31,881 nt of DNA from a virus: positions 1 through 31,881 of the IMG/VR virus record IMGVR_UViG_3300032050_000516, one strand, 5' to 3'. The translations under genes were made by a program, and so were the position numbers. Position 1 is the first letter of the stretch, and every line of letters starts with the position of its first letter. Positions 1 to 31,881 of the stretch are shown one piece after another. Below the pieces are notes generated by a model, which was given only the letters and a program-made list of their open reading frames with translations, did not search any database and was not told the DNA's origin.

Positions 1-149
1 GTTGTTGTGACACTCGGAGTTGTTGTTTGTGTATTTGTTGGAGTGCTCGTCTGTGTATTAGTCGGTGTGACTGTTGGAGTTGGTGTTTGTGTATTTGTTG
101 GAGTGCTCGTCTGTGTATTAGTCGGTGTGACTGTTGGAGTTGAGGTTAC
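1..149. repeat. Terminal direct repeat, left copy (assembly overlap of a circular genome)
   Basis: Bases 1-149 match 31733-31881 base for base except position 23 (T here, G at 31755). The repeat lies inside the Pro/Thr-repeat region of one gene, and that gene is in frame across the join. This fits an assembler overlap on a circular or circularly permuted genome better than a true terminal repeat. The mismatch may be strain variation or a repeat misplacement. Confidence 0.85.
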
Positions 150-617
150 ACTTGGAGTTGGAGTACTTGTTAAAGGAACTGTTGGAGAAGGTGTAATTGG
201 GTTTATCTCATCAGGAGCAAATATGGTATTGGAATTAAACTCATCATCAGAAATAAACTCAAAATAATTTTCATTTGTTGTATCCGCACTTACAACAATA
301 AACTCGGCAATACCGTTCTCAACCAACTCGGTGGCTAATATCGGGTTCAAGTTTGATGAACCAATAGGTTGGCTATACACATAATAATTATATTGACCTT
401 CATAAGGAAATGGGATTTCACCTCCACCCTGACCCTCAACAAACTCAAATTGATTATATCTCGTTGGATGTGGTGATACATCAGGTAAAATAAACTTTAC
501 CTCTTCTTTTGAGAATATATGAACAAATTGAAATAGATATTCAGGATTACAAAGAGTAGTATTCTGTGTGAGCGTTACGACTATCTTATTTAATTGATTG
601 GATTTTAATAATATCAT
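1..617 (-). CDS. PT-repeat fibre/lectin protein, N-terminal part (continues across circle join)
   Basis: This is the 5' part of a gene that runs off base 1 and continues in frame at the other end of the window. With the 149-bp overlap removed, the whole gene is 1563 nt and 520 aa. The start is the ATG at 617, just after a hairpin. Residues 1-142 form a non-repetitive domain starting MILLKSNQLNKIVVTLTQ, rich in beta-type sequence. From residue 143 the protein becomes a Pro/Thr/Ser/Asn/Gln linker (TPTPSV, NTQTST). The domain order (virion-binding N-terminus, linker, lectin-like C-terminus) suggests a surface fibre or decoration. It follows the tube-like protein and precedes the portal block. 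The virion location is inferred. Confidence 0.75.
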   Translation of the reverse strand, partial: MILLKSNQLNKIVVTLTQNTTLCNPEYLFQFVHIFSKEEVKFILPDVSPHPTRYNQFEFVEGQGGGEIPFPYEGQYNYYVYSQPIGSSNLNPILATELVENGIAEFIVVSADTTNENYFEFISDDEFNSNTIFAPDEINPITPSPTVPLTSTPTPSVTSTPTVTPTNTQTSTPTNTQTPTPTVTPTNTQTSTPTNTQTTTPSVTT

Positions 618-2214: not shown

Positions 2215-2237
2215 TTTGATAATAAATTATAATTGGT

Positions 2238-4809: not shown

Positions 4810-7011
4810 TTATATCAAAGACCTTGATTTTATGGTTCTATCAAACTGTTGTTGGTTAGACATATCCTGTGCTGTTACATAAGTTTTGATAGGTCTGTTA
4901 TTCATACTTTGACTCATAACATCCACTAATGACTGATTACCTAATGTTTGAGGTATTGCCGTATTTGGAAGGTTCCCCATATTATTCATCGCAGTCAACA
5001 TAGGGGAGAACATAGATGCTGACTTAGCATTCATAACAAACTCTCCATTTGACAACATCGCTGGTATTGAGTCAGTTATTGAACCTCCATCACCATACAC
5101 AAATCCACCTTGATTTCTTCTTGCGACAACTTGTATTGGTGCTGGAGCAGATGTTGAGTTAGTAGATGATGGGGCTTCGGGATTATTTCCACCACCTCCT
5201 CCACCACTTCCTGATTTTAATATTGCCTTTGCTCTTGATGCTGCCGATAGAATTGCCGCAACTTGACTTGCGTAAAAGATGGGGAATGCGAAAGCCGCAC
5301 CTGGCCCTCCAGCAATTGCTGATTGTTGTGCTATTCTTAACGCATTTATGAAACCAACACCAGTTCCGATAGCAATTTCTGCTAATGCTGCGGCTTTGGC
5401 GGCAGCTGTCCCTTGTTTCAATAACCCACTGAGTGCTCCTAATGCATTTCCAACTGCAGATGCGAACTGTAATTGTGCTGTTTCTCTTGCGAGTAATTCA
5501 TTCTTTTTATTTTGAGTTACTTGTTTGTCTATTTCACCTTCAGCATCGGCATATTTTTTGATTATTTCTAATCTTTTTACCTCATCATTTTCGACAGCTT
5601 GTAATTCTAAATCTCTTTGTTGTTGTAATAAAGTTCGTTTTTCTTCAAGTCGTATATTGTCTTCTTGAAAGTCAGTATTAAAGAGTTCATTAGCTTTATC
5701 TATTGCATCAATTTGGTCTTGTAATCCAATAAATAAAAGTTCCCTCTCCTTTTGTTGTTGTTGTTTTCGTTTTTCAAGTCGTTCTTTATTATACTTGTCA
5801 TCAATTACTTCAATATCTATTCTAAACTCTTCTTCAAGTGCAGTAAAATCAGTATATCCCGCTTCTTTGAGTTTAGCAAGTTCATTATTGAACCTTGTGG
5901 TTCTTTCAACTATTTCTCTTTCTTGGGGTTCTAATAATGATAATTCTGCTTCCCTTTGTATGTTCGCAGCTTCTTGTTGTTTCCGTATTCTATCTTGTTC
6001 CAACTTCAAGGCTTCAGCATTTGCTCTCTCTTGTGCTTGAAGTCCTTTTTGTCTTTGAGCTTCCTTCTCTTTGTTGAGTGCTGTGTCTGAATCAATCTCA
6101 AAGACATTTATTTCACTAATAAGATCTTTTTTCTGTTTTTCTAACTCCCTTCTTTTTTGTAGTGCCTTTTCTAAGTTTTCACCATTAGTAATTCTTTGTT
6201 CTTCCTCCTCAGATAATGCTTTGATATAAGCTTTATTAGTATCTTCAAGATCTTTTTTTAGACTTTCTAAACTGATTTTTCTTTGCTCCGATTCTGACTC
6301 ACCCAAGTTTCTAGATAATGCTATTCGTTCTGCGGTTTGTCTTTTTCGTTCTGCGATTGATTCTGCTAAAATCCTATCAGTTTCAGCTAAGGATTTGTCA
6401 AACTTAGCATTTGCGTCACTTGCCTCATCTGTTGCCGTCACATATTCCATCAGAGCACTGACAGCAAATCCCAAAGCCACCACAATCGCACCAATACCAG
6501 TCGCAGTCAAAGCTGCGGCAAATGCCCGAGCACCCACAGCTGCAGCCTGTTCTCCAACACCAACCGCAACAAATGATGATGCTAAGGCGTTATTGATAGT
6601 TGTGTAAATCTTAGTAATACCAAGATTTTTACCTAATGATAAACCAATATCTTTTACATCTTGTATAGTTTCCTTAAACTGAAAAGTGATGTCTTTTAAT
6701 GAGAATGATGAGAATTGTTTTAATAAAGAAATAGCACCATTAAACTTACCAGCAATCTCACCAATAGGACCAGGTATAAGTTGAAGGGAAGTCAATAAGT
6801 CCCCCGACCTTGCTTTGGTCTTTGCCATTTGGTCTTCAACATCACCTAATTTTGTAGATAATAACTCAAACTCTTCTTGAGAATATTTACCACTAGCAAG
6901 TTCAGCCTTCAACAATCTGACCTGTTGGGTCAATTTCATTGTATCCTCACCAGCGATTTTGACTGATTTAGTGTCTAAGTCAAACTTTATATCAATTTTT
7001 TTAGCGGCCAT
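4810..7011 (-). CDS. Tail tape measure protein
   Basis: This 733-aa protein has the layout of a tape measure. A short N-terminal helical region is followed by a strongly hydrophobic stretch (~138-195, TGIGAIVVALGFAVSALMEY). A long Glu/Lys/Gln/Arg coiled coil spans ~200-515, and a second hydrophobic Ala/Gly segment spans ~515-597. After a six-Gly run near residue 604, the C-terminus holds NQGGFVYGDGGSITDS and MLSNGEFVMNAKSA, which recur at tape-measure C-termini. It determines tail length and helps DNA entry. The length is modest for a long-tailed phage. It is separated from the protease by only 35 bp. Confidence 0.85.
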   Translation of the reverse strand: MAAKKIDIKFDLDTKSVKIAGEDTMKLTQQVRLLKAELASGKYSQEEFELLSTKLGDVEDQMAKTKARSGDLLTSLQLIPGPIGEIAGKFNGAISLLKQFSSFSLKDITFQFKETIQDVKDIGLSLGKNLGITKIYTTINNALASSFVAVGVGEQAAAVGARAFAAALTATGIGAIVVALGFAVSALMEYVTATDEASDANAKFDKSLAETDRILAESIAERKRQTAERIALSRNLGESESEQRKISLESLKKDLEDTNKAYIKALSEEEEQRITNGENLEKALQKRRELEKQKKDLISEINVFEIDSDTALNKEKEAQRQKGLQAQERANAEALKLEQDRIRKQQEAANIQREAELSLLEPQEREIVERTTRFNNELAKLKEAGYTDFTALEEEFRIDIEVIDDKYNKERLEKRKQQQQKERELLFIGLQDQIDAIDKANELFNTDFQEDNIRLEEKRTLLQQQRDLELQAVENDEVKRLEIIKKYADAEGEIDKQVTQNKKNELLARETAQLQFASAVGNALGALSGLLKQGTAAAKAAALAEIAIGTGVGFINALRIAQQSAIAGGPGAAFAFPIFYASQVAAILSAASRAKAILKSGSGGGGGGNNPEAPSSTNSTSAPAPIQVVARRNQGGFVYGDGGSITDSIPAMLSNGEFVMNAKSASMFSPMLTAMNNMGNLPNTAIPQTLGNQSLVDVMSQSMNNRPIKTYVTAQDMSNQQQFDRTIKSRSLI

Positions 7012-7155: not shown

Positions 7156-8562
7156 TTAAATAGCTGCACAGCTTCCTCCACTACAATTATAAAGTCCCAA
7201 TACCACTCCACTCGTATCTATTTCAGCTATTTGGAATGGACCAGTTGTTGTGTTAGTTGATACGTTTGAGTAAGCTACAAAACCAGCAACTCCGCCCTGA
7301 CCGAATATTGTATCACCAATCGTCAATGTCGCATAAGTTCCTGTTGCGTTTGTCAATGTTGCTATACTATAATTTGAATTACAATACCCTGAACAAGGGG
7401 TTATTACAGTTCCGTGAGTATAGATTTGTACAGCCTGAGTCGGTGTTGGTGTAGCAGTAGGTGTTGGACTAGTCGAAGGTTGAGTTTGGGTTGGTGTTTG
7501 GGTGGTAGTTGGTGTTAATGTTGGAGTTCTGGTCTGTGTGACAGTTTGAGTTGGTGTTGGTGTAACTAACCATTGAGAATATAACCATTTATTTTCAAGT
7601 TGAATCCTCACCAAATCCACATCAATTTGATTGAGTATCTTATCGAATACAATAATTTCCATTACCTCCGACAAGGCTAGATATTGTGTTGTAGATCCAG
7701 TTTGACCTCCAACAGCAATCGAAGTAATCGTTGTTGAAGTTGAACCCGTTTGTTTATTCGTCAAGGTCACACCATTCAATTGAACTTGTGAATTACCAAG
7801 AGTATTACCAGTAACAACACCCAAGAATAATCCCGATGCTCTCGAAATTGTATCTGCAGAGTTTTGTAATAAAACAATAGACCAATTATCAGGAACAGCA
7901 CCAACGTAAACATTGTCAGTTCCACCACCCGAATTTTGAGAATATAAATAATAATTAGAATTTAGTACTGGTGATGATGTTGGACCATCCAAAGAAAATG
8001 CAAAACCTTCAGGTTCATTTCTGCTTATACCAGCAACAAACATATATGTATAACCAGTATCAGAAAAAGAAATACCAGAAACAGACATAAATGTTCCTGA
8101 TGCTGTAAATGATCCATTGAAGGAAACACAATTTAATCCTGGTACTTGTGCATTTAAGGTTGATGCTGTATATAAAGGTTGATTACCTGAAATTGATTGT
8201 ATCAAATTATATGCATAAGGTCCCTTGTCGTTCCATTGTGAAACTTTATTATTCACATCTTTCGTTATTGTTGATTCGTCTGATGCATCAATCCAAAATC
8301 TAATGTTAGAATATGGCGGAGTACTTGAAGGTGTTACAGTTTGAGTTGGTGTAACTGTCGGTGTTGGGGTTACAATTGTGCTATCGCAAGCCCCACTAAT
8401 TGTCAAACCATCACATACAATCAATGGTAATTCTGCTTCCATACAAACAGAATCACCGAATGACATATTGTAAGATATTTCTATTCCATTACAGGTGGTT
8501 CCTGATATATATTTTGTTCCACTATCCAAAGGGTCATTGTGGAGGTATATTTGACAATTCAT
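7156..8562 (-). CDS. Modular surface protein: LamG-like domain on PT linkers
   Basis: This 468-aa protein has five parts. Residues 1-65 are a Cys-containing N-terminal module (MNCQIYLHNDP). Residues ~66-83 are a Pro/Thr linker. Residues ~84-330 are a concanavalin/LamG-like domain with IRFWIDASDESTI, VSQWNDKGPYAY and a terminal QIDVDLVRIQLENKWLYS. Residues ~333-376 are a second Pro/Thr linker. Residues ~378-468 are a four-Cys module starting IYTHGT and ending CSGGSC. The last module is a close paralogue of the C-terminus of the neighbouring 1469-aa protein. It lies between tail-tip and tape-measure genes, so it is probably a tail-attached adhesin that binds surface sugars. Confidence 0.7.
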   Translation of the reverse strand: MNCQIYLHNDPLDSGTKYISGTTCNGIEISYNMSFGDSVCMEAELPLIVCDGLTISGACDSTIVTPTPTVTPTQTVTPSSTPPYSNIRFWIDASDESTITKDVNNKVSQWNDKGPYAYNLIQSISGNQPLYTASTLNAQVPGLNCVSFNGSFTASGTFMSVSGISFSDTGYTYMFVAGISRNEPEGFAFSLDGPTSSPVLNSNYYLYSQNSGGGTDNVYVGAVPDNWSIVLLQNSADTISRASGLFLGVVTGNTLGNSQVQLNGVTLTNKQTGSTSTTITSIAVGGQTGSTTQYLALSEVMEIIVFDKILNQIDVDLVRIQLENKWLYSQWLVTPTPTQTVTQTRTPTLTPTTTQTPTQTQPSTSPTPTATPTPTQAVQIYTHGTVITPCSGYCNSNYSIATLTNATGTYATLTIGDTIFGQGGVAGFVAYSNVSTNTTTGPFQIAEIDTSGVVLGLYNCSGGSCAAI

Positions 8563-8569
8563 ACTACTT

Positions 8570-8578
8570 ATAAATATA
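8570..8578 (-). promoter_or_regulatory. TATATTTAT box before the 468-aa adhesin gene
   Basis: The box ends 7 nt before the ATG at 8562. Together with its flank it shares TTATAAATATAATTTTTTT (plus strand) with the site before the chaperone gene at 17319-17337. It is either a promoter or a start-site element. Confidence 0.4.
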
Positions 8579-8595
8579 ATTTTTTTTATAGTGAT

Positions 8596-11500
8596 TTATA
8601 GTGGATCACAACTTCCTCCTACACAAATCAAAACTGATAATACTTCACCATTACTATCTATTTCAGCAATCCTGAATGGACCAGTTGTCGTATCTGTGGA
8701 AACATCAGAATAAGCTATAAACCCTGAACCAGTAATTCCATAAATGAAACTTCCAATCGTAATACCCAAATATGAACTTGTTGCTGTTGTTAAAGTTGTA
8801 ATGTTATAGTTCGTATTACAATAATCCGAACAGGTTGCTCTTACCGCTCCGTGAGTATAAATTGTTGGTTGTGAGGTCACACTAGGGGTCGGTGTTTGTG
8901 TTCTTGTGTTGGTTGGGGTTGTGGTTGGCGTCACAGGTGGTGATGCAGATAAACTGACAGTTGGTGTTTGAGTAGGTGTTGGAGTTGCTGTTGGAGTTGG
9001 TGAAGGACAAACACTAAACAAGGACATAGCGCCGTCAGCATCAACTTGGAACACTTCACCACCACCAACGGACTTGAACCATTTCGAGTTTCCATTAAAC
9101 TCATTAGCAGGTATAAATGTGGTGCTTGTGTATAATGATAAACCATAAGTAATTGCTGCTTCTTGGAATGATGTTATACCAGCTTGTGCTACATAGACCG
9201 TGATTTGATTACAAACACCATCACAAGCTTCTGTGCTGCTATTCCATCCGATTGACCCCGTGTCTGTGCAGAGTTGTAAAGGTGTAAAATTGGTTGGTGT
9301 AGATGTTTGTGTCGGAGTCATAGTTGGTGTTTGTGTAGATGTCTGTGTCGGAGTATTACTTGGTGTCTGTGTCTGTGTTGGTGTTTGTGTTGCAGTATTA
9401 CTTGGTGTTTGTGTTGCAGTATTACTTGGTGTTTGTGTCTGTGTTGGTGTTTGTGTAGCAGTATTACTCGGGGTTTGTGTAGCAGTATTACTCGGAGTCT
9501 GTGTTGGACTTGGTGTTTGTGTAGCAGTATTACTCGGGGTTTGAGTTGGGGTATTACTTGGGGTTTGAGTTGGTGAAGAGGTTGTGGTTGGGGTATTACT
9601 TGGTGTATTGGTTGGTGTATTGGTTGGTGTTGGTGTTGGCGTTGGCGTAGGACATATTCCCCTATCTGTCGCTGTGAATGAATTGACACCATATATTCTA
9701 ACAGGAACGGTCAAAGAACATACGAAAACAATAGACAACGGTGTCATTTCAACATCCACAGTTTGATTAGTCTGACAATCTGTATATCTGAACCCAAGTG
9801 TTCCCGAATTAGAAGAGTTTTCACATTCATAGTTTATACACTGAACCACAGGTGATGGGGTTTGTGATGGGGTTTGTGATGGGGTTTGACTTGGGGTTCC
9901 CGTATTGGTTGGTGTTGAAGTAGGTGTTGAAGTAGGTGTTGAAGTAGGTGTTGGTGTTTGAGTTACAGTAGCAGTCGGTGTTGTACCAAGACTAGCTGTA
10001 ATACTTGGAGTTGGAGTTTGTGTTGGACTAGCAGTTATACTTGGAGTTGGAGTTTGTGTTGGGGTTTTTGTATTAGTTGGAGTTTGTGTTGGACTAGCAG
10101 TTATACTTGCAGTTGGAGTTTGTGTTGGGGTTTTTGTATTAGTTGGAGTTTGTGTTGGACTAGCAGTTATACTCGCAGTTGGACTAGAAGTAATCGATGG
10201 AGTTGCAGTTGGTGACGGTGTTTGAGTCGGGGTTAGGAACTGCGTTACTGTTGGTGTTGGTGTTGGAGTTTGAGATGGTGTCGAACTTGGCGCAGGTGGA
10301 ACAACAGAACCATTCTGCACTACATTCAATGCCGTGAAACCAGTACAATTACAATCAGAATAAGCATTTACAAAGTTTGGAGTAAACCCTGAAGAAATGT
10401 AATAATGTTGATAATTGTTATTACTACTGTAAGCCCCTTGAGTCACCTGATGACAACCCAACGCATTCAAGTCATCATCGTATAATGTTACATAATTTCC
10501 TATGTAAGCATATAAGTTATAGTTCAAGTCAGAATTACTATATCTTGTAGCACCACCCGCACAAGGTATTAAGTCATAATAAAGAACTCTATGTTCGTCA
10601 TAGGTTTTTGTAAGTTTGACTAATTCCAAATCACAAAGGGAAGGTTCCAATAAGTTGAACCCATCTATTTTGTTTATTCTAAATAATGAGTTTTTGATTA
10701 ATATTTTTTCATCATATAAAAGTGATTTCACCTCATTTGGGGTAAGGTATATTTTGACTTTGTATATCTTGTTTTCAGGACTGATTAAGTCCTCAATATA
10801 ATCTTTGTAATAGATGTCATATAAGTCCTCTGCAACGAACTCAAACTCTCTCGGTTGAATGGTAGTAAGGTCTTCCCCTCTGAAGTTAATATAATGAGAA
10901 AAACCACTATAATTAAAAGGATAAGTTGTAAACCTATTGATGTTGGTAAATCTTGTCTGTGGATATAATGTTCCAAATGACTTCATATACCAAGTTTGTA
11001 ATTCTGTTGTACCAGTACCAATGAAACCATAGTTTAATGATGGTAAAGTCAATCCCCTAAATACAACACGAGGTAATATCTTGAATGGTTGGAACTGTTG
11101 TAAAGTCGTTCCCGAAACATCAGTATTTTTGATTTTTGAAAATGATGACAGAGTTAAATAGTTTGATGTTACAGCATTGATTGTAATATCAATAGGAGAC
11201 GAGAATATGTATGTGAACTTTGTATTTGAGTTTTTATATGGAATGTTAAGATTGATTTTATCAGTTCCAAAAACTTTATTGGATGCCGAGTTGAAATCTT
11301 GATTCGCATAATCTTGGTCTAACCTAAACTCAAAATCTAGTGTTCCATTTATTAAAGATGTTGTTGGGGATAATGATTGTAGTTGGTTATAATCCACTTT
11401 TGTAGTCCAATCTAATACCTCACCCTTTCCAAAGTAATCTACAATAGGTTCAATTATTAAAGTGTTTGGTTTGTCAGGACTTGGGACAACAACCAAGTTG

Positions 11501-13005
11501 AAATACCTGTTTATAGATGTAATGAAATCAATTTGTTTATAATCATTATCGGGGAACTCCAACGAATAATCAAATGTCTGACCTGATACTAAAAATCTTG
11601 GCCCATTGAATATCTCAAACTTGAAGTTTGATACTGTTGCGTTTGTTCCAAAGAAATAAAATTGTAAATCAGTATTACCTGTCAAATTGAAAGCTCTTGT
11701 GAACTCAACTTGTGTCGTTGATGTTTCATTATTACAAAGTCCATCTCCCCTAAGTTCCGCAGTAGTAGTATAATCATTATAAAATAGTGATACATCAGAA
11801 GTAGTTTCATTACTGACTGTCCCATTACCACTTGTAATTCCAAGAAACGTACCAACTTCGGTATATGGGAGACCTATGTCTACACTTGGAATGAATCCAA
11901 CGACCTCATTACCAGATGAATTGACGTATAAATAATTCAAGTCACCAGGACCAGTATTGATGATAGTAAATCCACAACCACTAAAAAGATTTCTCTGTAA
12001 TGTATAACTAAACTTGAATGTGTATTCTCCCGCAAAAATTGTAGGGAAATTGATAAACTCTGTCGTTGCTGATAGATTAAGAGTATTACAAATTACTACT
12101 GAACTTGGATTTGTAGAAGCACTTTGTGGAGTGGTGGAAAAAAAGAATCCAAGATTTTCATAAGTATAACAAGGTATTATAGAGTTTCTTGAATATATTG
12201 TTTCATCTAAAAACTTCAGAGGTAAGTAAAATCTCTCAAAATAAGATGTATTAAAGAAATCAGATTGTATCTCATACCCCGCATCACGAACTATACTTGA
12301 ATATAATTCTTTGATTTGTAGTGTTGGCTTGAAATAATAATCATTTACTGGTGTCCCTGTAAAATCGAAATGACCGATTTTTGGGGTATAAGTCAGTCCT
12401 GATAAATCCGAGAACTCCACCAAAGGTGTAATTAAAGGATTAATAAACGCAGAATTACCAGAGTATTCATAACCAATATTATAAAGACCCCACATCGTCT
12501 TACCATTTTGATATGAATAGTTTGTAGCACCTGTTATTGGAAATAGGTTATAATCTACATTTGATTGTAGTATAACATCTTCTGTAAATGGGTGTGATAA
12601 ATGTGATAGGTCAGTTTGTCTCAAAAACTTATCCCCGATATTTGCTGCTAAATTACCGACCTGATTATAGAATGTAGCCTGATAGGTGAAATCTTCACCT
12701 TCAATAGAAACCCCATCTAATCGAATATTTCCAACCAGTATCTCATAACCATCCCAAGATATAATCGCATCAAACTTGTCGTTGGGGTCAAAGTCCAAAG
12801 GAACAGAATTAACATCATAATAATAATTGAATATGTCGTTATTATTCTTTGTTCCTGGTAAAGTGAATGATTTGGAATAACCTGAGTTTTTTGATGTTAT
12901 GTCTTGAATTTCCCCAACAGAAAAAGACATCAATATGTCTTCATCATCAAACAAATCCAAATATTTGTGAACACCTGATATTACAGTCCTGATTCTTAAA
13001 CTCAT
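8596..13005 (-). CDS. Large tail-tip/baseplate protein with C-terminal PT-linked modules
   Basis: This is the largest protein, at 1469 aa. Residues 1-~900 form a structural region. It begins MSLRIRTVISGVHKYLDLFD and includes FSVGEIQDITSKNSGYSKSF, an N-terminal signature I associate with tail-tip proteins of Bacteroidota phages. After residue ~905 come a Pro/Thr linker (~905-1048), a Cys module (~1049-1117, CINYEC to GICP), a linker (~1118-1235), a second module (~1237-1333, CTDTG to LFSVCP), a linker, and a final four-Cys module (~1381-1468). The last two modules have paralogues in the tail terminator and the 468-aa protein. It overlaps the upstream gene by one base (TAATG). It is probably the tail hub with receptor-binding extensions. 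Confidence 0.75.
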   Translation of the reverse strand: MSLRIRTVISGVHKYLDLFDDEDILMSFSVGEIQDITSKNSGYSKSFTLPGTKNNNDIFNYYYDVNSVPLDFDPNDKFDAIISWDGYEILVGNIRLDGVSIEGEDFTYQATFYNQVGNLAANIGDKFLRQTDLSHLSHPFTEDVILQSNVDYNLFPITGATNYSYQNGKTMWGLYNIGYEYSGNSAFINPLITPLVEFSDLSGLTYTPKIGHFDFTGTPVNDYYFKPTLQIKELYSSIVRDAGYEIQSDFFNTSYFERFYLPLKFLDETIYSRNSIIPCYTYENLGFFFSTTPQSASTNPSSVVICNTLNLSATTEFINFPTIFAGEYTFKFSYTLQRNLFSGCGFTIINTGPGDLNYLYVNSSGNEVVGFIPSVDIGLPYTEVGTFLGITSGNGTVSNETTSDVSLFYNDYTTTAELRGDGLCNNETSTTQVEFTRAFNLTGNTDLQFYFFGTNATVSNFKFEIFNGPRFLVSGQTFDYSLEFPDNDYKQIDFITSINRYFNLVVVPSPDKPNTLIIEPIVDYFGKGEVLDWTTKVDYNQLQSLSPTTSLINGTLDFEFRLDQDYANQDFNSASNKVFGTDKINLNIPYKNSNTKFTYIFSSPIDITINAVTSNYLTLSSFSKIKNTDVSGTTLQQFQPFKILPRVVFRGLTLPSLNYGFIGTGTTELQTWYMKSFGTLYPQTRFTNINRFTTYPFNYSGFSHYINFRGEDLTTIQPREFEFVAEDLYDIYYKDYIEDLISPENKIYKVKIYLTPNEVKSLLYDEKILIKNSLFRINKIDGFNLLEPSLCDLELVKLTKTYDEHRVLYYDLIPCAGGATRYSNSDLNYNLYAYIGNYVTLYDDDLNALGCHQVTQGAYSSNNNYQHYYISSGFTPNFVNAYSDCNCTGFTALNVVQNGSVVPPAPSSTPSQTPTPTPTVTQFLTPTQTPSPTATPSITSSPTASITASPTQTPTNTKTPTQTPTASITASPTQTPTNTKTPTQTPTPSITASPTQTPTPSITASLGTTPTATVTQTPTPTSTPTSTPTSTPTNTGTPSQTPSQTPSQTPSPVVQCINYECENSSNSGTLGFRYTDCQTNQTVDVEMTPLSIVFVCSLTVPVRIYGVNSFTATDRGICPTPTPTPTPTNTPTNTPSNTPTTTSSPTQTPSNTPTQTPSNTATQTPSPTQTPSNTATQTPSNTATQTPTQTQTPSNTATQTPSNTATQTPTQTQTPSNTPTQTSTQTPTMTPTQTSTPTNFTPLQLCTDTGSIGWNSSTEACDGVCNQITVYVAQAGITSFQEAAITYGLSLYTSTTFIPANEFNGNSKWFKSVGGGEVFQVDADGAMSLFSVCPSPTPTATPTPTQTPTVSLSASPPVTPTTTPTNTRTQTPTPSVTSQPTIYTHGAVRATCSDYCNTNYNITTLTTATSSYLGITIGSFIYGITGSGFIAYSDVSTDTTTGPFRIAEIDSNGEVLSVLICVGGSCDPL
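9300..9652. repeat. PT-linker coding repeats (24-bp units)
   Basis: This in-frame repeat tract in the 1469-aa gene encodes SNTATQTP-type octapeptides (24-bp units) mixed with TQTQTP. The minus (coding) strand is almost free of G. The plus strand is a GT-rich tract that produces several false reading frames. Confidence 0.8.
9858..10290. repeat. PT-linker coding repeats (longer units)
   Basis: This is a second in-frame repeat tract in the 1469-aa gene. It contains at least two long near-identical units coding TASPTQTPTNTKTPTQTP and shorter TPSQTPSQTP units. It separates the structural body from the first Cys module. A third, shorter tract lies at about 8870-9000. Confidence 0.8.
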
Positions 13006-14681
13006 TAGTAAGGTAAATTATATTGTCTATAAGGGGTTAATTTCAATTCAAGTTCGTATTGGAATACTCTGTCGTATTTCTGTTGATACTTTTTAACTTC
13101 TTTATTCAACACTTGTACTGGTATTAGATATGGATAGATGAGTGGTTGGTTATTCTCTGGCGTCCAATCATCTTTAATTACATATACAGTTGGGGAGGTA
13201 ATCAATTCTTCAATTATATCCACATCATTCTGTTTGACAAAGTTAGAAGCAACAGTCATAAACTCCACAGCATCACCATAGTAAACTGTTTCAGAGGAAT
13301 CATAACTCTGCATATTCCATATTGTAGAATTAAGTGTTTTTTGAGACCCGTATATCTTTTTACTTGGGGTCTTAGCGTATTGACTTTTCTTGGTGAAGGT
13401 GAATGTATCCCATACCCCATTTCTATTGATAAACAAGAAATTGACAGGGTCATTGAAACACTCCTCACCCATCATCTTATATTGTACTATCTCTGATACA
13501 CCATTAGAATAATTTGTATCGCAGTTTCCACTTGATAGGAATATTGCAACATCGCTATTCGTCCTGAATAAAGGGCTTTGTTTCCAATTAACATATGCTA
13601 TTCTTTGACCTAAAAATGAATTATAACCTGTTGGATTTTGAGTGTATGAAATCGGTTGTGAATATATGACATCATAATTAGGTTGTGTATTTGGTTCTGT
13701 CTTTTGTAAGATACTCACAGAATTAATTAATGATGAGTTATTGAATAATTCGTTCTCCCCAAACATAAACCCTAACACAATAGGACAATTATAATAATGA
13801 CTTCTGAATCTAGTTTGGATTGGGGAACCATTCAAGATTGTCATAGGGATTGTGTCTTGACCGAATGTACCCATAAACCTACCTGCTATGTTGAATGGAA
13901 CAACCCCACTATTCATAGCGAAGTCATATACCTTTGTGTTCCAATAGTTATATTCACCATTCAAGTTTATACCTGAATAGTAGTAAGTTAATGCAGGGTT
14001 ATTAGATACACCATATCTTTTGTTGTCTTGAACACCAGGCCATACCATCACTCCATAAGGTTGAGTTGCAGCACTCGCTGGACTCATAGTTGGTCCTGTG
14101 AACCCTGAATAAACCCCGTAGTTCGTTTCATCTATGATAATGGTAGTTGTCCCTCCACTTGTATATTGAACCCCAAATATCAAACGATATTCATTAACGT
14201 GATAGATATTCTCGAATCCTACATAACCCCCGTTGAAACCATTAGAAAAACTTATGAAGTTTATAGGTAAATTATTTATCGTTGCTTGTGATGTTTCTTC
14301 ATCAATATTGATTAATGAACTATTCGTTACAGATACAGCATAAGGGTCTGACTCACCAAAACCAGTGTTCGTATTGTAAATCATAGACATATTACGAGGG
14401 TTTGGTTTTACTATATTTCTAATGATTGTTTCAACATTAAAGATACAATTTCCATACTCGTTGGAGGGGATTAATAACCTTCCTATTTTACCAAACTCTT
14501 GTGTTGACCCTGTGGTATTGTTCGGACCTAGATCGTTCTTATATGGGTTCTTATAGATGTCTACAACCAATCTTATATCGGTGTATGCAGAATAACTATT
14601 TAATGCCACATTCCAAGTATGGTCGGAGTGTGTCTCCGTCACAGATAATGGGGCTTGTAATAATGTTAAATTGAAGCTCAT
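13005..14681 (-). CDS. Tail protein, probable distal tail/tail-tip component
   Basis: This 558-aa protein starts MSFNLTLLQAPLSVTETHSD and ends LELKLTPYRQYNLPY. The sequence is rich in Asn, Tyr, Ser and Gly with alternating beta-type strands and no obvious enzyme motif. The C-terminus (YLIPVQVLNKEVKKYQQKYD) is charged and probably docks to a partner. It lies between the neck protein and the 1469-aa tail-tip protein, with a one-base overlap to the latter, so the two are translationally coupled and probably assemble together. It may be a distal-tail (Dit-like) or baseplate protein. The assignment rests mainly on position. Confidence 0.55.
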   Translation of the reverse strand: MSFNLTLLQAPLSVTETHSDHTWNVALNSYSAYTDIRLVVDIYKNPYKNDLGPNNTTGSTQEFGKIGRLLIPSNEYGNCIFNVETIIRNIVKPNPRNMSMIYNTNTGFGESDPYAVSVTNSSLINIDEETSQATINNLPINFISFSNGFNGGYVGFENIYHVNEYRLIFGVQYTSGGTTTIIIDETNYGVYSGFTGPTMSPASAATQPYGVMVWPGVQDNKRYGVSNNPALTYYYSGINLNGEYNYWNTKVYDFAMNSGVVPFNIAGRFMGTFGQDTIPMTILNGSPIQTRFRSHYYNCPIVLGFMFGENELFNNSSLINSVSILQKTEPNTQPNYDVIYSQPISYTQNPTGYNSFLGQRIAYVNWKQSPLFRTNSDVAIFLSSGNCDTNYSNGVSEIVQYKMMGEECFNDPVNFLFINRNGVWDTFTFTKKSQYAKTPSKKIYGSQKTLNSTIWNMQSYDSSETVYYGDAVEFMTVASNFVKQNDVDIIEELITSPTVYVIKDDWTPENNQPLIYPYLIPVQVLNKEVKKYQQKYDRVFQYELELKLTPYRQYNLPY

Positions 14682-14682
14682 T

Positions 14683-15240
14683 TTATTTCGATGGTATTTC
14701 TTTATTTAATGTTCTGATAATGAAGTTTTCAACATCGTTTCCAATCGCATTGTATAATCTCTCAAAATCATCTCTAAACTCAGCTGGAGGATTCATTAAA
14801 ACATCTTCCAATGAATCATAGGCTTTATCATAAATATTGGTTCTTCTAATACCAAACTTATGTATGTTCTTTTGTATGGCGAATGCTAAAGATAATTGAC
14901 TACCTTTCACAAATCGTCCTTTCTCATCTCGTCTTCGTATTCCCCTAATTTTTATCCAATCCAATAATGCTTTGATTGGAACAAACTTACCACCTTTTCT
15001 TCTACCTAAATTAACATACTTGAAATAGTCCATATACTCAACTTCAAGCATTAGTCCCTCAGGTGTTTCTTTTACCTTTGTTTTTATACTATTCAATAAT
15101 TTACCTGATGCAACTTTATTCGACACACCCCTAACATTCGGGTTTCCAAAGGGGTATATTTTTGCCTTTATCTTTTGTCTATAAAAAGCTGCAAACATAT
15201 TTCCTAATTGTTCGAGTTGTTCTTCAGTTAATTCCCACAT
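14683..15240 (-). CDS. Tail completion/neck protein (HK97 gp10-like)
   Basis: This 185-aa protein contains a region (~65-140) with YFKYVNLGRRKGGKFVP, RRRDEKGRFVKGSQLS and FAIQKNIHKFGIRRTN. Residues like these occur in HK97 gp10-type head-tail joining proteins, where a small beta domain is followed by a basic loop. It follows the tail-terminator gene by 6 bp and precedes the next tail gene by 1 bp. It would act at the neck or top of the tail during joining. The match is by pattern only. Confidence 0.6.
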   Translation of the reverse strand: MWELTEEQLEQLGNMFAAFYRQKIKAKIYPFGNPNVRGVSNKVASGKLLNSIKTKVKETPEGLMLEVEYMDYFKYVNLGRRKGGKFVPIKALLDWIKIRGIRRRDEKGRFVKGSQLSLAFAIQKNIHKFGIRRTNIYDKAYDSLEDVLMNPPAEFRDDFERLYNAIGNDVENFIIRTLNKEIPSK

Positions 15241-15246
15241 AGTTTA

Positions 15247-16560
15247 TCAGGTTGGACAGGTTCCAAATAACGACATAGCCCCGTCATTATCTATTTGGAA
15301 TATTTCAGATTTATCGGTTGCTCCAAACCATAAAGAATTACCATCATATAAGTTTGCTGGTATAAAAACAGGTGTTGTGTAGATAGGTAGTCCGTAAGTT
15401 ATTGCTGCTTGTTGGAATGTGGTTACTCCTGTTTGTGAAATATAAACGGTGACTGGAGTACAAGTCCCCGAACAAATATCATTAGTAGAAGCAAATCCAT
15501 CAACTCCATTAGTAGTACATAAACTTAATACAGAATAGGGTAATGCTTGTGTTGGAGTTGGGGTACTAGTTGTTGTTGGGGTCGGACTTTGAGTATTTGT
15601 TGGTGTAGTAGTTGGGGTTGCAGTCGGTATGATTGGTAATATCAAATTGACAGGACAAGGACATCCACTCAAGGTATATCCCAACACATCAAACGATGAT
15701 ACGATTTCACCAGGTAATAACACAGGTGCTAAATTAAATTGGTGTTGATGTTCCCCGCTTAATATAGTTTCTTGACCTGTAAATATTGTTCCTAATGAAC
15801 CATACGCAGTTCCTGAAATAATGTAATTACAATTTGCTGTCGCAGCATCTGTAAAGTTTGGTTGATTCCATAGTATCAACTTAAACTTGGTATTTTCTGA
15901 TAATTGAACTTCAAGATACTGAGTTGTCACAGGACAAGTTGAAGTAGGTGTTTGTGTTGGTGTCGTTGTAGGTGTCTGTGTATTAGTTGGAGTATTAGTT
16001 GGTGTTGTTGTTTGAGTTGGAGTTGGTGAAACACAAGGGTCAGCAGGAAAATCATCAAATGCTGCCACACATCTATCCAAGTAAGTTTTGGTCTTGATTC
16101 TAATAGTTGCTGAATAACCACATAACAAATCCTCATATTGTTCGATGAATGGAACCATAGTCACAGCATCATCTAAATAATAGTATTCGTTGTAGTTTCC
16201 AAGTTTTTCGGTTACAGACAAACGGAACATAGATATAACATCATTCATAATCTGCAATGTATCAGACAATATGTCAGTCATATTATCCATATCTCGTTTC
16301 ATAATATCTGAAACAATCAAGTTAAACTCATAGGTCATAAACCCAAACTCTTGGATTACATTTGCAGGAACAACATATAAATACGGATAGTATGGGGCTT
16401 GGTCCGATAGGTTTACTTCTTTATCTCTTCTATCAACTTGATATGAGAACTCATCCAAATCCCCAAATCCATATGAGTTAATTTGTTTGTGTCTTTGAGC
16501 TAAAAGTTGGAAGTCATCAACTATGTTTTTTAGATTGAGACCATATATCGTTTTTGTCAT
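15247..16560 (-). CDS. Tail terminator-like protein carrying PT-linked surface modules
   Basis: In this 437-aa protein only residues 1-~176 (starting MTKTIYGLNLKNIVDDFQLL) look like a tail-completion/terminator domain, judged from its position before the neck protein and its size. After that come a Pro/Thr linker (~177-208), a module (~209-312) starting CPVTTQYLEVQL, a second linker (~313-340), and a C-terminal Cys module (~343-437). The last module shares AAITYGL, FIPAN and DGAMSLF with a module of the 1469-aa tail-tip protein. Adding display modules to such a normally small protein is unusual and would place adhesins at the head-tail junction. It overlaps the chaperone frameshift frame by 4 bp. 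Confidence 0.65.
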   Translation of the reverse strand: MTKTIYGLNLKNIVDDFQLLAQRHKQINSYGFGDLDEFSYQVDRRDKEVNLSDQAPYYPYLYVVPANVIQEFGFMTYEFNLIVSDIMKRDMDNMTDILSDTLQIMNDVISMFRLSVTEKLGNYNEYYYLDDAVTMVPFIEQYEDLLCGYSATIRIKTKTYLDRCVAAFDDFPADPCVSPTPTQTTTPTNTPTNTQTPTTTPTQTPTSTCPVTTQYLEVQLSENTKFKLILWNQPNFTDAATANCNYIISGTAYGSLGTIFTGQETILSGEHQHQFNLAPVLLPGEIVSSFDVLGYTLSGCPCPVNLILPIIPTATPTTTPTNTQSPTPTTTSTPTPTQALPYSVLSLCTTNGVDGFASTNDICSGTCTPVTVYISQTGVTTFQQAAITYGLPIYTTPVFIPANLYDGNSLWFGATDKSEIFQIDNDGAMSLFGTCPT

Positions 16561-16823
16561 TTTTGTTGTTTCATTTGTTTTTTAATCGCCTTCTCTTGTT
16601 CCGAACGTAAGTCAGAAAGGTACGAAAGATGGTTGAGACAAAGAATAAGGGGCTGACTAGTAATACTATTAACTTTCCAAACTTTGTCCTCCGAGAGTTG
16701 AGAAATCCAGATATAGTAACCCCAAAATTTTGAAAAACTATTATCACCTTTAACACCCTCGTCAACCACTTGTTCTCTGAATAGAGTTGCGAAAGACCTG
16801 ACAATCCCCTTTCTAAAGTCCAT
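16557..16823 (-). CDS. Tail assembly chaperone, -1 frameshift extension (gpT-like)
   Basis: This 88-codon frame begins MDFRKGIVRSFATLF directly after the U10 run, in the -1 frame of the upstream chaperone. It has its own ATG but no independent start signals. Its content (FWGYYIWISQLSEDKVWKV, LSYLSDLRSEQEKAI) is the Trp/Tyr-rich helical end I associate with the second half of tail chaperones. A slip on U10 would join it to 163 upstream codons. The alternative is a one-base sequencing error in the homopolymer, with eleven T giving one continuous frame. Confidence 0.6.
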   Translation of the reverse strand: MDFRKGIVRSFATLFREQVVDEGVKGDNSFSKFWGYYIWISQLSEDKVWKVNSITSQPLILCLNHLSYLSDLRSEQEKAIKKQMKQQK

Positions 16824-17346: not shown

Positions 17347-18486
17347 TTAATATACAAACACCCCTGTATTTCTATACATCTTCATTTCAAGGACATATCT
17401 GAGGGGGTCAATTAAGTGGTTATTGTCATCCACTGGTTCATCTAAGTTATTCCCATTTTTATCTGTCTTCCAAACATAACTTAATAGCTCAGTTTCTAAA
17501 TTGATTGATGATTCGTGAATGAAAAAATTGCTTCTTTTAATAAGGTCAATCCCATGTAGTATGGAGTTCTTCTTTACAGGTTTTGCGTTTATACCCTGTC
17601 GTCTTAGTTCCTCTATTGCTTGGGGGTTTGCACTATCACAAATAAAATCTTCTTTGAGGTTAATACCCAAGTCCTTTATCTTATAGATGAAGTCAGGTAT
17701 GGTTACATTTCTCAAGTATAATAATTCCTGACAATAGATTGACTCCCCGTTCTTATGAACTTGTATAAGTGTGGAGGGGTCAGAGTATCCCCAGTCAATA
17801 CCGAAACCAAGCAATTTAGACCCCTCTGGTAAGGTCGAATATTTCTGTTGGTGTGAGAATACCATTTTGGTGGGAAGTCCTCTCTGACCTAGTCCAAAAA
17901 CCCTCCAAAGGTTAGGGTCTCTATATTGTAGCTTCTCGATTTCTTGAACTTGTACTTCTGATAAAAAGGGATTGTCTTTGTAGGTGGTAATATTGTAATT
18001 TACATCAGGTTGTCCTTCAAGGTCATAAATCCACGATTTCCATAACGAGGGGTTCAAGTCCATTACTGTCAGATCTGATGTTCTTAGCATTAGTTGTATG
18101 TATTCGTCATAAGATACTTCTGTTGCTTCGTTGATAAATAAGTAATCCCTTTTCCTACCACGTAGTTTGGTTTCATCATCTACTGAGAACCACTCAATCA
18201 TATTCGACCCCAACTGATAATAACCATCCACAGAGTGCCAGTTGTTTTGGTCGTATAAATCAAACTTGATTAGTATTTCCTTGAGGTCTCGTAGGACTGA
18301 CCCTTTGAGTGCTGGTAATGTCTTTCTAACTATTGATAAGGTTTTGTTCTCCTCATTCAATAACTTGTATATGAAATAAATTAGGATATTGTATGTCTTT
18401 GATGCTCTCGATGACCCCTGAAATATGTTAATCCTTTTATCAGAGTTTAATAGCGTTTCGAATACGGATGTTGTTTGTATCTTCAT
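17347..18486 (-). CDS. terL: Terminase large subunit (PBSX type)
   Basis: This 379-aa protein is the packaging motor ATPase/nuclease. The ATPase half has a variant Walker A (GSSRASKTY, residues 24-32) and a Walker B (DYLFINEATE, ~114-123). The nuclease half has three spaced acidic residues: D231 in FGIDWGYSDP, D284 in FICDSANPQA and D360 in NNHLIDPLRY. The size is slightly short but complete. The start ATG at 18486 overlaps the upstream stop by 4 nt (ATGA), with no Shine-Dalgarno sequence. It pairs with the small subunit at 21285-21740, but nuclease and methyltransferase genes separate the two. Confidence 0.92.
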   Translation of the reverse strand: MKIQTTSVFETLLNSDKRINIFQGSSRASKTYNILIYFIYKLLNEENKTLSIVRKTLPALKGSVLRDLKEILIKFDLYDQNNWHSVDGYYQLGSNMIEWFSVDDETKLRGRKRDYLFINEATEVSYDEYIQLMLRTSDLTVMDLNPSLWKSWIYDLEGQPDVNYNITTYKDNPFLSEVQVQEIEKLQYRDPNLWRVFGLGQRGLPTKMVFSHQQKYSTLPEGSKLLGFGIDWGYSDPSTLIQVHKNGESIYCQELLYLRNVTIPDFIYKIKDLGINLKEDFICDSANPQAIEELRRQGINAKPVKKNSILHGIDLIKRSNFFIHESSINLETELLSYVWKTDKNGNNLDEPVDDNNHLIDPLRYVLEMKMYRNTGVFVY

Positions 18487-18875
18487 TCTAATAACTTATC
18501 AAACCATTTATCAATATCGTAGTATCTGCTATTTGTTCCTTTGTCAGCATAACCTCCAACTATTCTTTTATCAGTTTGTTTGTTATTTGTATTACCAAAA
18601 TTACCACCTGTCATATCCATAAGTGTTCCATCAAATATTGTGGATTTACTAATTACACCATCATTCAACATATCATCAGACACCAGTATATTAGCGGGGA
18701 AACGACCTTGTGAAGAACCACAAATAACAGAGTTTTTTATTTGACCGAACTTGGTATTAGAGTCCTTACCATAATCACTATCAATTCCATATTTGACCTG
18801 ATGTTCTAATAAACCATCACCCTCCTCAAATGGTATTCTACAGTCATCTATCCAACTAATACCCTTGCTATACAT
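18483..18875 (-). CDS. Free-standing methyltransferase insert domain, copy 2
   Basis: This 130-aa protein starts MYSKGISWIDDCRIPF and contains QGRFPANILVSDDMLNDG and TNSRYYDIDKWFD. Those three motifs normally occur inside phage DNA methyltransferases, between the middle region and the C-terminal SAM-binding block; this placement is from memory of the family. Here they form a separate gene with no catalytic motif of its own. It is a paralogue of the next upstream gene, with a 54-bp stretch identical. It overlaps its neighbours by 8 nt and 4 nt. It may be a target-recognition or partner subunit for the methyltransferase at 19241-20326. Confidence 0.7.
   Translation of the reverse strand: MYSKGISWIDDCRIPFEEGDGLLEHQVKYGIDSDYGKDSNTKFGQIKNSVICGSSQGRFPANILVSDDMLNDGVISKSTIFDGTLMDMTGGNFGNTNNKQTDKRIVGGYADKGTNSRYYDIDKWFDKLLE
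18657..18710. repeat. 54-bp perfect repeat, copy in second paralogue
   Basis: This block is identical to 19024-19077 over 54 bases and encodes the RFPANILVSDDMLNDG region of both stand-alone methyltransferase domains. Identity in the middle of otherwise diverged genes suggests recent duplication or gene conversion. Such blocks could also recombine and delete one copy. Confidence 0.85.
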
Positions 18876-20985: not shown

Positions 20986-21012
20986 AAACCAAAAATAAAA
21001 AAAATATTTCTA

Positions 21013-21177: not shown

Positions 21178-21178
21178 A

Positions 21179-25454: not shown

Positions 25455-26930
25455 TTATTCACAATTAAGTAATTTACCAAATGGATCTAATGCAACTAAT
25501 GTACCAGTTGTTGCTCCATCATATCCACTCAATAAACCTCCAATTACAATATTACCATCAGATAAAACAGTGCTCGGGAAACTAAATCCATTCACATCAT
25601 CATAGACAAATCCTGTTCCTTGATTCAAAGTGGAGTCAAAACTTCCATCGGAATTGAGTCTTGCTAAAACACTTACACTATTTCCGCTATATGTGTCAAA
25701 GGCACCACTGACTAAATATTTTCCGTTTTGGGTTAATGTTATATCCACCAAAAACGCTGTTGTGCTTGCTCCATTTTGAGTAAAACCACTTCCAACAGAA
25801 AAACTTGTATCACGAGTTCCATTACTCAATAATCTAACTATTTTAGAACTTGATACACCACTGACGACACCGAAATCACCACCAAATATAATTTTACCGT
25901 CAGGTTGTGCTACAACAACATAACCACCAGAATTGAATTGCCCACCACTAAATGTTCCAGTGATAAAAGTTTCATCAACAGTTCCACCAGTTGAAAACCT
26001 CACTATCCTATTGTAATTTGAAGAACCACTTACCTGTGTGAAATCACCACAAGCGAGTATTTTTCCGTCTGTTTGAATACTAATATCAAAAATTGTATTA
26101 TTCACAGTAGGGGTGCTAAATGTTGTATCATTTGAACCGTCTGTATTTAACCTTATTATTCTTGATTCAGAAACTCCACTATAAGAAGTGAAAACACCAC
26201 CAACTAATATCTTATTATCTGGTTGTATAACAATAGCCCAAACTGTGTTATTGAAACCTGTGCCTATTGAAAAAGTATTATCTAACGAACCATCTGTATT
26301 TAATCTGACGATTCTATTTCTTGATGTTCCTTTGTATGTTGTAAAATTTCCACCAACTAATACTTTGCCGTCAGATTGTATCGCTATTGCATTGACTGCT
26401 CCGTTGAAACCAGTGCCATAGTCAAATGTATCATCAATACTGAAGTCAGTATTTAATCTTACAATTCTATTAGCACTTACACCCTGATATGATGTGAAGT
26501 ATCCCCCAATAAGTAATTTACCATCAGGTTGTTGTTTGATTACTTCTGGTTCAGTTGTTCCACCAGCAAACGCCGCTCCGATAGAATAACAATCAAAGTC
26601 AGGGTCAGAGACAGCCATAGTTAAACTATCACCTGATTGAATGATTGGGGTTTGAACACTTACAATACCAGATGAATATTTTTCACTTGAATATAATGTG
26701 TTATTGACATAAGTGTCAATTTGTGCATCTCCTTGTTTCAAGAACATTTGGAATGTTCCATAAGGAGAACCTTTTTGGTTGTCTAAGGTTGTGTTTGTTC
26801 CACTAACCATTCCACCAGCAGATAATGGTAATGAACCACTTGTGACGGTCAATTCACCAGTCACACTACTCGGCGTTGTGATGTCCGTAATGACCGCTGA
26901 TGCCGATGTATTTGATATGCTAAAACTCAT
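25455..26930 (-). CDS. Seven-bladed beta-propeller (delta-60 / DUF5122 repeat) surface protein
   Basis: In this 491-aa protein residues 1-~100 form an N-terminal domain (MSFSISNTSASAVITD). The rest consists of seven repeats of about 50 residues, each with a PDGKILVGGxF core (for example QPDGKLLIGGYF, QSDGKVLVGGNF, QTDGKILACGDF) and most with a RIVRLNTDGSxDxTF end. This is the DUF5122/delta-60 repeat, and seven copies suit a closed propeller. Repeats 6 and 7 are the most degenerate. It is probably a tail fibre or decoration that binds the host surface. No signal peptide was seen. Confidence 0.8.
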   Translation of the reverse strand: MSFSISNTSASAVITDITTPSSVTGELTVTSGSLPLSAGGMVSGTNTTLDNQKGSPYGTFQMFLKQGDAQIDTYVNNTLYSSEKYSSGIVSVQTPIIQSGDSLTMAVSDPDFDCYSIGAAFAGGTTEPEVIKQQPDGKLLIGGYFTSYQGVSANRIVRLNTDFSIDDTFDYGTGFNGAVNAIAIQSDGKVLVGGNFTTYKGTSRNRIVRLNTDGSLDNTFSIGTGFNNTVWAIVIQPDNKILVGGVFTSYSGVSESRIIRLNTDGSNDTTFSTPTVNNTIFDISIQTDGKILACGDFTQVSGSSNYNRIVRFSTGGTVDETFITGTFSGGQFNSGGYVVVAQPDGKIIFGGDFGVVSGVSSSKIVRLLSNGTRDTSFSVGSGFTQNGASTTAFLVDITLTQNGKYLVSGAFDTYSGNSVSVLARLNSDGSFDSTLNQGTGFVYDDVNGFSFPSTVLSDGNIVIGGLLSGYDGATTGTLVALDPFGKLLNCE

Positions 26931-30786: not shown

Positions 30787-31881
30787 TTAAATATTTCTAT
30801 TCAAAGTTGTGTTAAAGGTTGTTATTATGTCTCTCAAATTACCTAACTCTGTGGTTGTGAGTCCATCACCCATAAATGCTGTACCTAATGTTCTATTTGT
30901 AAATCCACCGAAACCAGCAGCATATAACAAACCAACATTAGTTCCTGTCCTTGTTATTGTTGTGTTTTGTGTGACTGTTTGAACTCCTCCACCTGCTCTA
31001 ACAAAAGAAACCTGTGAATTATTCAATCTCGTTAATGCGAAGAAGTTGATTGCTTGTGTGTTTGTTGTTGCAGTCAAAATATTCAATGCACCAGTTTGTA
31101 TCGAACCTCTTGTATTAGTACCATTAGAAGATTGTATAGTCAACCACCCACTTACATACTGTGCCCCGATTTCGAAACCTGTGGAACCTGTTTGTGATAT
31201 GAAATAACCTATGGTTGTATTCGCTGAAGTTGAGGTTTGTGCACTTTCAATCCAGTATGTATCAGCTTGACCGTTTGTACCATTCCCTTGTATACCCTTT
31301 TCTTGTGAAAAAGTTATACCACCTGCGAATGTCAATCTAAATGCTGCATTTGTATCTTGTGGATCTTTAGCATTCCATTTACAAGAAGCAGATGTACCAC
31401 CCAAGAATGGATAAAGTGCATCCAATTTAGTGTAAATACCCGCTGATTTCAAGTCAACAAACATAGTGTTCGTTGCTGCTGACACAGTTGAAGTAATTCC
31501 AGTACCACCTGCCGAAACTACTGCTTGTAAGTATGCAGCTGCATCTGCATCAAATGCTGCTGAACTAGGTGTTGGAGTATTCGTAGGTGTACTTGTTTGT
31601 GTTGTTGTGACACTCGGAGTTGGTGTTTGTGTATTTGTTGGAGTATTCGTAGGTGTACTTGTTTGTGTTGTTGTGACACTCGGAGTTGGTGTTTGTGTAT
31701 TTGTTGCAGTGTTCGTAGGTGTACTTGTTTGTGTTGTTGTGACACTCGGAGTTGGTGTTTGTGTATTTGTTGGAGTGCTCGTCTGTGTATTAGTCGGTGT
31801 GACTGTTGGAGTTGGTGTTTGTGTATTTGTTGGAGTGCTCGTCTGTGTATTAGTCGGTGTGACTGTTGGAGTTGAGGTTAC
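30787..31881 (-). CDS. PT-repeat fibre/lectin protein, C-terminal part (continues from base 617)
   Basis: This is the 3' part of the join-spanning gene. Position 31881 is equivalent to 149, and both are the first base of a codon in the same frame, so the reading frame is continuous. Its first ~105 codons here are Pro/Thr linker made of 66-bp and 60-bp repeats. Next comes an Ala-rich hinge (SSAAFADADAAAY). The last ~250 residues resemble a concanavalin/LamG-type beta-sandwich common in metagenomic phage fibres, with [11 protein letters not shown] near its start and [18 protein letters not shown] at the end. A GTG at 31485 could be mistaken for the start, but it lies inside the domain. The likely role is glycan or host-surface binding. 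Confidence 0.8.
31571..31881. repeat. In-frame tandem repeats of 66 bp and 60 bp coding the PT linker
   Basis: The marker GTTGGAGT or GTTGCAGT recurs at 31571, 31637, 31703, 31769 and 31829. The spacings are 66, 66, 66 and 60 bp, all multiples of three. The minus strand encodes Pro/Thr/Asn/Gln units ([15 protein letters not shown] type). Near-identical units suggest recent expansion and easy copy-number change without a frame shift. Confidence 0.85.
31733..31881. repeat. Terminal direct repeat, right copy
   Basis: This is the second copy of the 149-bp end overlap (see 1-149). Removing it gives a unit genome of about 31,732 bp. Because it falls in tandem repeats, the true repeat copy number at this point is uncertain. 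Confidence 0.85.

Follow-up and report, generated by a model that had tools for sequence, protein, structure and literature searches.

The virus-derived stretch of DNA considered here, hereafter the window, is IMG/VR record IMGVR_UViG_3300032050_000516, positions 1-31,881, at its full length of 31,881 bases. It encodes a terminase (PF04466), a portal, a head-maturation protease and a tape-measure-like protein, and the phage is therefore a siphovirus. By sequence comparison, it is of the Bacteroidota type: the nearest TerL sequences are those of Bacteroides, Parabacteroides and Flavobacterium phages (~33% identity). The region from terminase to tape measure is syntenic with that of the Nonlabens phages P12024S/L. 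Three proteins of 437, 1469 and 468 aa (p437, p1469 and p468) and a fibre spanning the join of the contig ends were described in an initial annotation as compact modules separated by Pro/Thr-rich (P/T) linkers, and all four open reading frames (ORFs) do carry such linkers. Their anchors, linkers and modules are given below in window coordinates, the m numbers denoting module families.

15247..16560, minus strand: p437, comprising a tail terminator domain (aa 1-168), linker, m11, linker and module B (m2), as predicted from an AlphaFold2 (AF2) model and structure matches
16057..16560, minus strand: tail terminator anchor (m8), of moderate confidence, with Z 5.6-7.0 to several unrelated phage terminators and a predicted local distance difference test (pLDDT) score of 34-63
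15907..16056, minus strand: p437 P/T linker 1, where DNA blocks of relatives break at 15950, 15985 and 15986
15643..15918, minus strand: m11, predicted beta-sandwich module with Calx-beta/immunoglobulin (Ig)-like matches (Z up to 7.8)
15523..15660, minus strand: p437 P/T linker 2, where the G008 block ends at 15588
15250..15534, minus strand: module B (m2), terminator copy, AF2 pLDDT 69-92
8596..13005, minus strand: p1469, comprising a ~900-aa tail protein anchor (m1), linkers, m19, module B and module A, from ORF, linker and profile mapping
10312..13005, minus strand: m1 anchor, candidate tail-tip/baseplate hub protein by synteny and homology with P12024S
9850..10311, minus strand: p1469 P/T linker 1, built of 66-bp tandem units, where blocks of five relatives break at 9852, 9908, 10009, 10046 and 10058
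9670..9879, minus strand: m19, small Cys module defined by clustering, in G004 also on an m4 protein
9259..9684, minus strand: p1469 P/T linker 2, from the linker call
9004..9288, minus strand: module B (m2), tail protein copy, 54% identical to the p437 copy
8854..9024, minus strand: p1469 P/T linker 3, from the linker call
8599..8862, minus strand: module A (m0), tail protein copy, a relative of which is modelled at pLDDT 90-96
7156..8562, minus strand: p468, comprising the m4 anchor, linker, m7, linker and module A, from ORF, linker and profile mapping
8386..8562, minus strand: m4 anchor, 59 aa, Cys-rich (relative at pLDDT ~77-90; 18 homologous sequences)
8302..8391, minus strand: p468 P/T linker 1, from the linker call
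7564..8310, minus strand: m7, likely ConA/LamG-like lectin module (phrog_10356)
7408..7578, minus strand: p468 P/T linker 2, from the linker call
7159..7425, minus strand: module A (m0), p468 copy, 60% identical to the p1469 copy
201..617, minus strand: m5 anchor of the fibre, its gene lying between the capsid-region genes and the portal
1..200, minus strand: fibre P/T linker before the join, overlapping the contig end by 149 nt
31552..31881, minus strand: fibre P/T linker after the join, from linker and block analysis
30790..31551, minus strand: m3 payload of the fibre (phrog_17104), in relatives on five different anchors
25455..26930, minus strand: p491, DUF5122 beta-propeller (m10), standalone in the window (PF17164, E 5e-80)

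Two modules are each present twice in the window. Module A, which had been noted as a four-cysteine module starting with IYTHG at the end of two of the proteins, occupies aa 380-468 of p468 and aa 1382-1469 of p1469, and module B, noted for its AAITYGL motif, does indeed occur in both p1469 (aa 1240-1334) and p437 (aa 342-436). Cysteines 11, 15, 80 and 85 of module A are kept in both window copies and all four are invariant in 19 homologues, with a mean column identity of 74% over the alignment. As the DNA of the two module A copies is only ~70-72% identical, they are old rather than recent duplicates. The two copies of A and two of B within one genome could point to an old gene duplication in one lineage, without exchange between phages; however, this is very unlikely, as in trees the closest kin of the window copies sit in other phages and positions. 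Thus, the p1469 copy of module A shares 79% identity with that of contig L018 (related contigs and loci are cited by G and L handles) and is also close to the copy of a 163-kb contig, while the p468 copy shares 75% with one on the G006 tail protein, compared to 60% between the window copies. Scans of viral contigs found both modules in related phages, a deeper profile search placed module A at 44 viral loci, and the 162.8-kb contig L004 has A and B together in one protein. A comparison of A with B by hhalign (probability 31%, P 5e-4) is suggestive only of remote homology. In addition, module A was seen on other linker types, namely TSTSTS (L186, L188), TTSTTTT (G010) and PASTPAS (G002), the loci being L186, L188, G010 (L136) and L161.

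For the comparison among relatives, the P/T proteins of related contigs were cut at their linkers, the pieces were clustered, the clusters were compared by profile and the resulting module profiles were mapped onto all ORFs of 104 related contigs. The N-terminal anchors are position-specific and comprise m1 (the ~900-aa tail protein), m4, m5, the tail terminator (m8/m9) and m14. Meanwhile, nine payload families are found on at least two of these five anchors, giving 30 anchor-payload pairings: the broadest family is m3, with five anchors, followed by m6 and m7 with four and m12 with three, while A, B, m15, m16 and m19 each have two. Both m12 and m15 vary in placement, as they can precede the terminator or follow other anchors. 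The beta-propeller p491, which matches PF17164 in six repeats (E 5.1e-80; 264 bits against a cut-off of 27), serves elsewhere as a payload: in G029 it is joined to m1, and G003, G005, G007, G011, G030 and G032 have it fused to module A. The initial annotation had described modules that can be swapped on flexible linkers in several places of the virion, and both the pairings and the position changes in the trees described below bear this out; its refuting outcome, that the modules would be absent from other phages, is contradicted by the profile search, which found them in many.

Exchange is visible in pairs of relatives, as anchors 90-99% identical often bear different payloads. The m5 anchors of G024 and G021 are 99% identical and carry m3 and m6-m7, respectively, while the m5 anchors of the window and G006 are 91% identical and carry m3 and m7. 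Over all pairs, 191 of the 275 ends of collinear DNA blocks fall in linkers or at most 15 nt from them, against 22% expected, although block ends are not independent and changes in linker length also break alignments, so that a p-value is not to be taken literally. In the window, blocks end in linker 1 of p1469 in five relatives (9852-10058) and in linker 1 of p437 in four (15950-15986). The G008 block stops at 15588 and m11 is absent from the G008 terminator; m11 is also found on the propeller proteins of G007 and G011. Moreover, in G029 the terminator gene stops within the linker, leaving a bare stub, and the DNA on either side of the missing payload is 87% identical. The trees of m3, A (m0), m6 and m7 require 7-8 position changes each, with 8 for m3 (minimum 4), and the m3 copy of the window fibre falls in a 100/100 clade with the terminator copy of G025 and the tail-protein copies of G006 and G008, apart from other fibre copies.

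Regarding the route of exchange, the proposal that modules recombine through the repeats is not supported: the swaps break in linkers, but not through long DNA identity. The longest exact match between linkers of different window genes is 16 nt, and linker matches summed over pairs reach 59, below the mean of 89 of a synonymous-codon null, so recombination via repetitive linker DNA is rejected for the window. Longer matches (26-32 nt) are found only in some relatives (G006, G018, G021), and the linkers grow internally by tandem units. It is more likely that exchange at linkers is tolerated, there being no fold to disrupt, rather than driven by sequence identity. Payload-free terminators ending in a bare P/T linker, resembling empty sockets, were observed in L168/G029 (2377-2967), G018 (6251-6835), L030 and L038.

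As the linkers are of low complexity and the contig ends fall inside one, repetitive linkers could in principle have fused unrelated genes during metagenome assembly. This is hardly credible, as two further records, from two separate samples, contain the same phage at DNA identities of 99.98-100% and together cover p437, p1469 and the start of p468; other architectures recur across samples (G008/G009, G013/G014/L018), the ORFs remain open across the linkers, and the linkers of the four genes have no 27-mer in common with other contigs. Within the window, they share no 27-mer with the remaining sequence except for the terminal overlap. An assembly chimera was therefore rejected, with some uncertainty left over how many tandem units the linkers contain. 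The fibre (617..1 joined to 31881..30787, minus strand), which lies outside the 7156-16560 range assigned to the group by the initial annotation, is a real gene. The contig ends overlap by 149 nt (148/149 identical) inside its repetitive linker, and joining them there gives a single in-frame fibre of 520 aa. The join itself is real because DNA blocks of three relatives, collinear at 82-83%, run across it: 31749 to 5144 in G008, 31606 to 5156 in G018 and 31617 to 3958 in G027, in window coordinates. The cultured Flavobacterium phage FL-1 has an m3 homologue (L215 8575-9729; 31% identity) directly after its portal gene, a placement that, like that of the m5-m3 fibre beside the window portal, hints at a head or neck location. 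PDB sequence searches with m5 and m3 gave no credible match.

The N-terminus of p437, labelled a tail terminator from the outset, earned that label by structure: aa 14-160 match lambda gpU (3fz2; Z 5.7, 104 aligned residues), the NF5 neck (6.8), the Bxb1 connector (7.0) and the R4C terminator (5.8), which argues with moderate confidence for a tail-terminator fold. Its gene lies between a weak tail-protein match (p247) and tail/tape-measure genes. In the AF2 model of p437, m11 and m2 are mostly at pLDDT 67-92, while the linkers, at 27-45, are disordered. The top structure matches of m11 are Calx-beta and other beta-sandwiches, with Z scores below the clear-match level. Many relatives have two tandem tail-terminator domains per ORF, with payloads before or after them (profile m9, which spans two m8 units), as in L153/G021 (14515-16671), L159/G024 (1364-3520) and L172/G033 (20300-22624). 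As for the other anchors, a PDB sequence search with m1 found no credible match, and its exact role as a tail-tip/baseplate hub protein may be proposed from synteny.

A protein of a relative, with m4, a linker and module A, was modelled by AF2 with module A at pLDDT 90-96, m4 at ~77-90 and a disordered linker. Structure prediction, which had been put forward as a check, therefore bore out folded modules and disordered linkers for m11 and B of p437 and for m4 and module A of the relative, and gave no clear fold match for module A. Combined alignments of m7 and m3 with module A were misaligned and were left out of folding. The m7 and m15 families, the only ones with sequence support for a lectin fold, may adopt a ConA/LamG-like one. 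Of the m7 family, 2 of 11 homologues match PF13385 (best E 0.0032, weak), the window m7 itself having no Pfam match, and m7 weakly matches the CBM40-type sialidase chain 4c1w (E 0.003). Meanwhile, m15, which has remote similarity to m7, gives a match of E 2e-4 to the lectin region of PilC, and the PilC lectin module is a demonstrated glycan binder (PMC9934059). Sugar binding by the modules is putative, and no function is assigned to A and B. No BppA chain was found when the profiles of A, B, m3 and m7 were compared with PDB sequences, although a sequence comparison cannot exclude the fold.

Taken together, the system is probably one of combinatorial surface display, in which anchors, disordered P/T tethers and exchangeable modules would serve glycan adhesion, a reading to which we assign a probability of about 0.68. 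Virion proteins at the neck (p437), at a candidate tail tip (p1469), p468 and the fibre adjacent to the head or portal would each extend into a disordered P/T linker acting as a socket. The folded modules A, B, m3, m7, m11 and m19 would be threaded along these flexible linkers like beads, relatives also using m6, the m10 propeller, m12, m15 and m16. Since the linker is unstructured, modules fused in frame would fold independently and could be gained, lost or moved between genes and phages without disturbing assembly. The sharing of modules, their exchange among positions and phages and the breaks in linkers are established computationally, as is the disorder of linkers beside folded modules in p437 and one relative. 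Incorporated into the virion and exposed, they would probably bind host-surface or extracellular glycans through multivalent, low-affinity and reversible contacts, with a role in adsorption before irreversible attachment. A wider version, in which at least five virion positions would keep P/T stubs as permanent sockets for one payload library across lineages, the 163-kb phage included, and a phage would be re-targeted by moving heads between neck, head-adjacent and tail positions with its structural genes almost unchanged, is tentative, at somewhat less than even odds.

Several results weigh against combinatorial display. The model of p437 has low pLDDT over its tail-terminator domain. By sequence, A, B and m3 could be linked to no known binding fold, PDB sequence searches giving nothing credible, and a structure search with the m4-module A model returned matches to the m4 region only, none on A. 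Also, module A lies exactly at the C-terminus in 35/35 distinct occurrences, as a capping or assembly role would predict as well, unlike m2, m3, m6, m7, m11 and m13, which are not always there. Module A could accordingly have been recruited to several proteins as a C-terminal domain for assembly, capping or maturation, and not as a ligand-binding head. This is improbable, however: assembly can do without it, given the many orthologous anchors that lack it, and it follows linkers of P/T, Ser/Thr and other types, which suits a terminal head. More generally, the modules might be ornaments, neutral or mildly stabilising surface domains that spread since disordered linkers tolerate fusions, a role that has been suggested for many Ig-like domains of phages. 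The Ig/Calx-beta-like appearance of m11, the match of A and B to no known binding family and the loss of payloads from the terminators of G029, G018, L030 and L038 would agree with it, but the invariant cysteines and high column identity of module A imply selection, m7 and m15 give lectin-like signals, and turnover is concentrated in the payloads while the anchors remain 90-99% identical, which resembles receptor-driven diversification; ornaments are thus an unlikely account.

Studies of how phages diversify receptor binding usually take one tail fibre at a time. Under combinatorial display, the unit that diversifies would be a module moving between virion structural positions, with linkers as joints, and the recognition of hosts by these uncultured phages may be distributed across the entire particle. 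Such modular movement would explain anchors that stay nearly identical while surface modules change. The modules, of 70-260 aa, are ready units for tests, and the naked linker stubs are natural empty sockets.

Phage surface domains of Ig-like type, described by Fraser and colleagues in 2006-2007, are reportedly small modules on diverse virion proteins, mobile between phages, but they form one fold family, compared to many families, apparently several folds and disordered linkers here. Actinobacterial cellulases include PT-linker glycoside hydrolases, with flexible Pro/Thr-rich linkers between folded domains and carbohydrate-binding modules; these are secreted bacterial enzymes, not virion proteins, and are likened to the present ones by linker layout. 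In the Nonlabens phages P12024S/L (Inhavirus), the homologue of the p1469 anchor is gene 45, which encodes 754 aa without P/T-linked payloads; at its end it has a weak match to BACON, the annotation given to it, which falls below the Pfam cut-off.

The closest precedent is that of the lactococcal 936 phages, with BppA-like carbohydrate-binding modules on the neck, the tail-tube extension TpeX and evolved Dit, two of which were demonstrated to bind host cells (PMC6669499). As in the present phages, whose virion positions are deduced from homology and synteny, related modules are found on several virion positions, and the near-identical N-terminus and swapped C-terminal domains of the 936 neck proteins parallel the anchors and payloads. 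Nevertheless, the 936 system has mainly one BppA-type family and compact junctions, compared to at least 13 payload families, five anchors and P/T linkers, and its modules are partly made by programmed frameshift (TpeX), whereas modules here are fused in frame, in the same continuous ORF as their anchors. The tail terminator as a carrier and the Bacteroidota-type phages are further differences. Domain mosaicism is also known phage-wide as fragments common to otherwise unrelated proteins, including neck and tail-fibre cases with a conserved N-terminus and an exchanged C-terminus (Smug et al. 2023, PMC10684548). The pattern described there is database-wide, and the sections consulted contain no case of one payload set that moves among the sockets of a single virion with breakpoints bounded by linkers. 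The view that the arrangement is little described is partly right, these two precedents being already published. What differs here is the breadth (the pairings and nine multi-anchor families), the P/T-linker sockets, the terminator as carrier and one payload set moving among positions, a literature search limited to an open-access library not establishing that these are undescribed. The system is an unusually combinatorial version of an already known kind of virion decoration.

Concerning the host, 50,697 phage records searched for a cultured one contained no close relative of p437 or of the 9.4-kb region. Among genomes of 84,980 prokaryote species, a single pattern scan found no relative of module A, and the only TerL relative was in a Cloacimonadota metagenome-assembled genome, at 42%; the host is therefore not established. 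DNA polymerase, primase, helicase, recombinase and lysin were not recognised in the window (1-31881) by inspection by eye and by family searches of part of the ORFs. A DNA methyltransferase ORF (19241-20326, within 18483-20326) is followed by two overlapping ORFs of ~130 aa that are near-duplicates (SKGISWIDDCRIPF...GRFPANILVSDDMLNDG...) and resemble split, duplicated methylase segments. Finally, the ORF at 28024-28662 contains a 51-bp tandem repeat encoding KIVSEETRKK units and resembles a homing endonuclease with repeated DNA-binding motifs.

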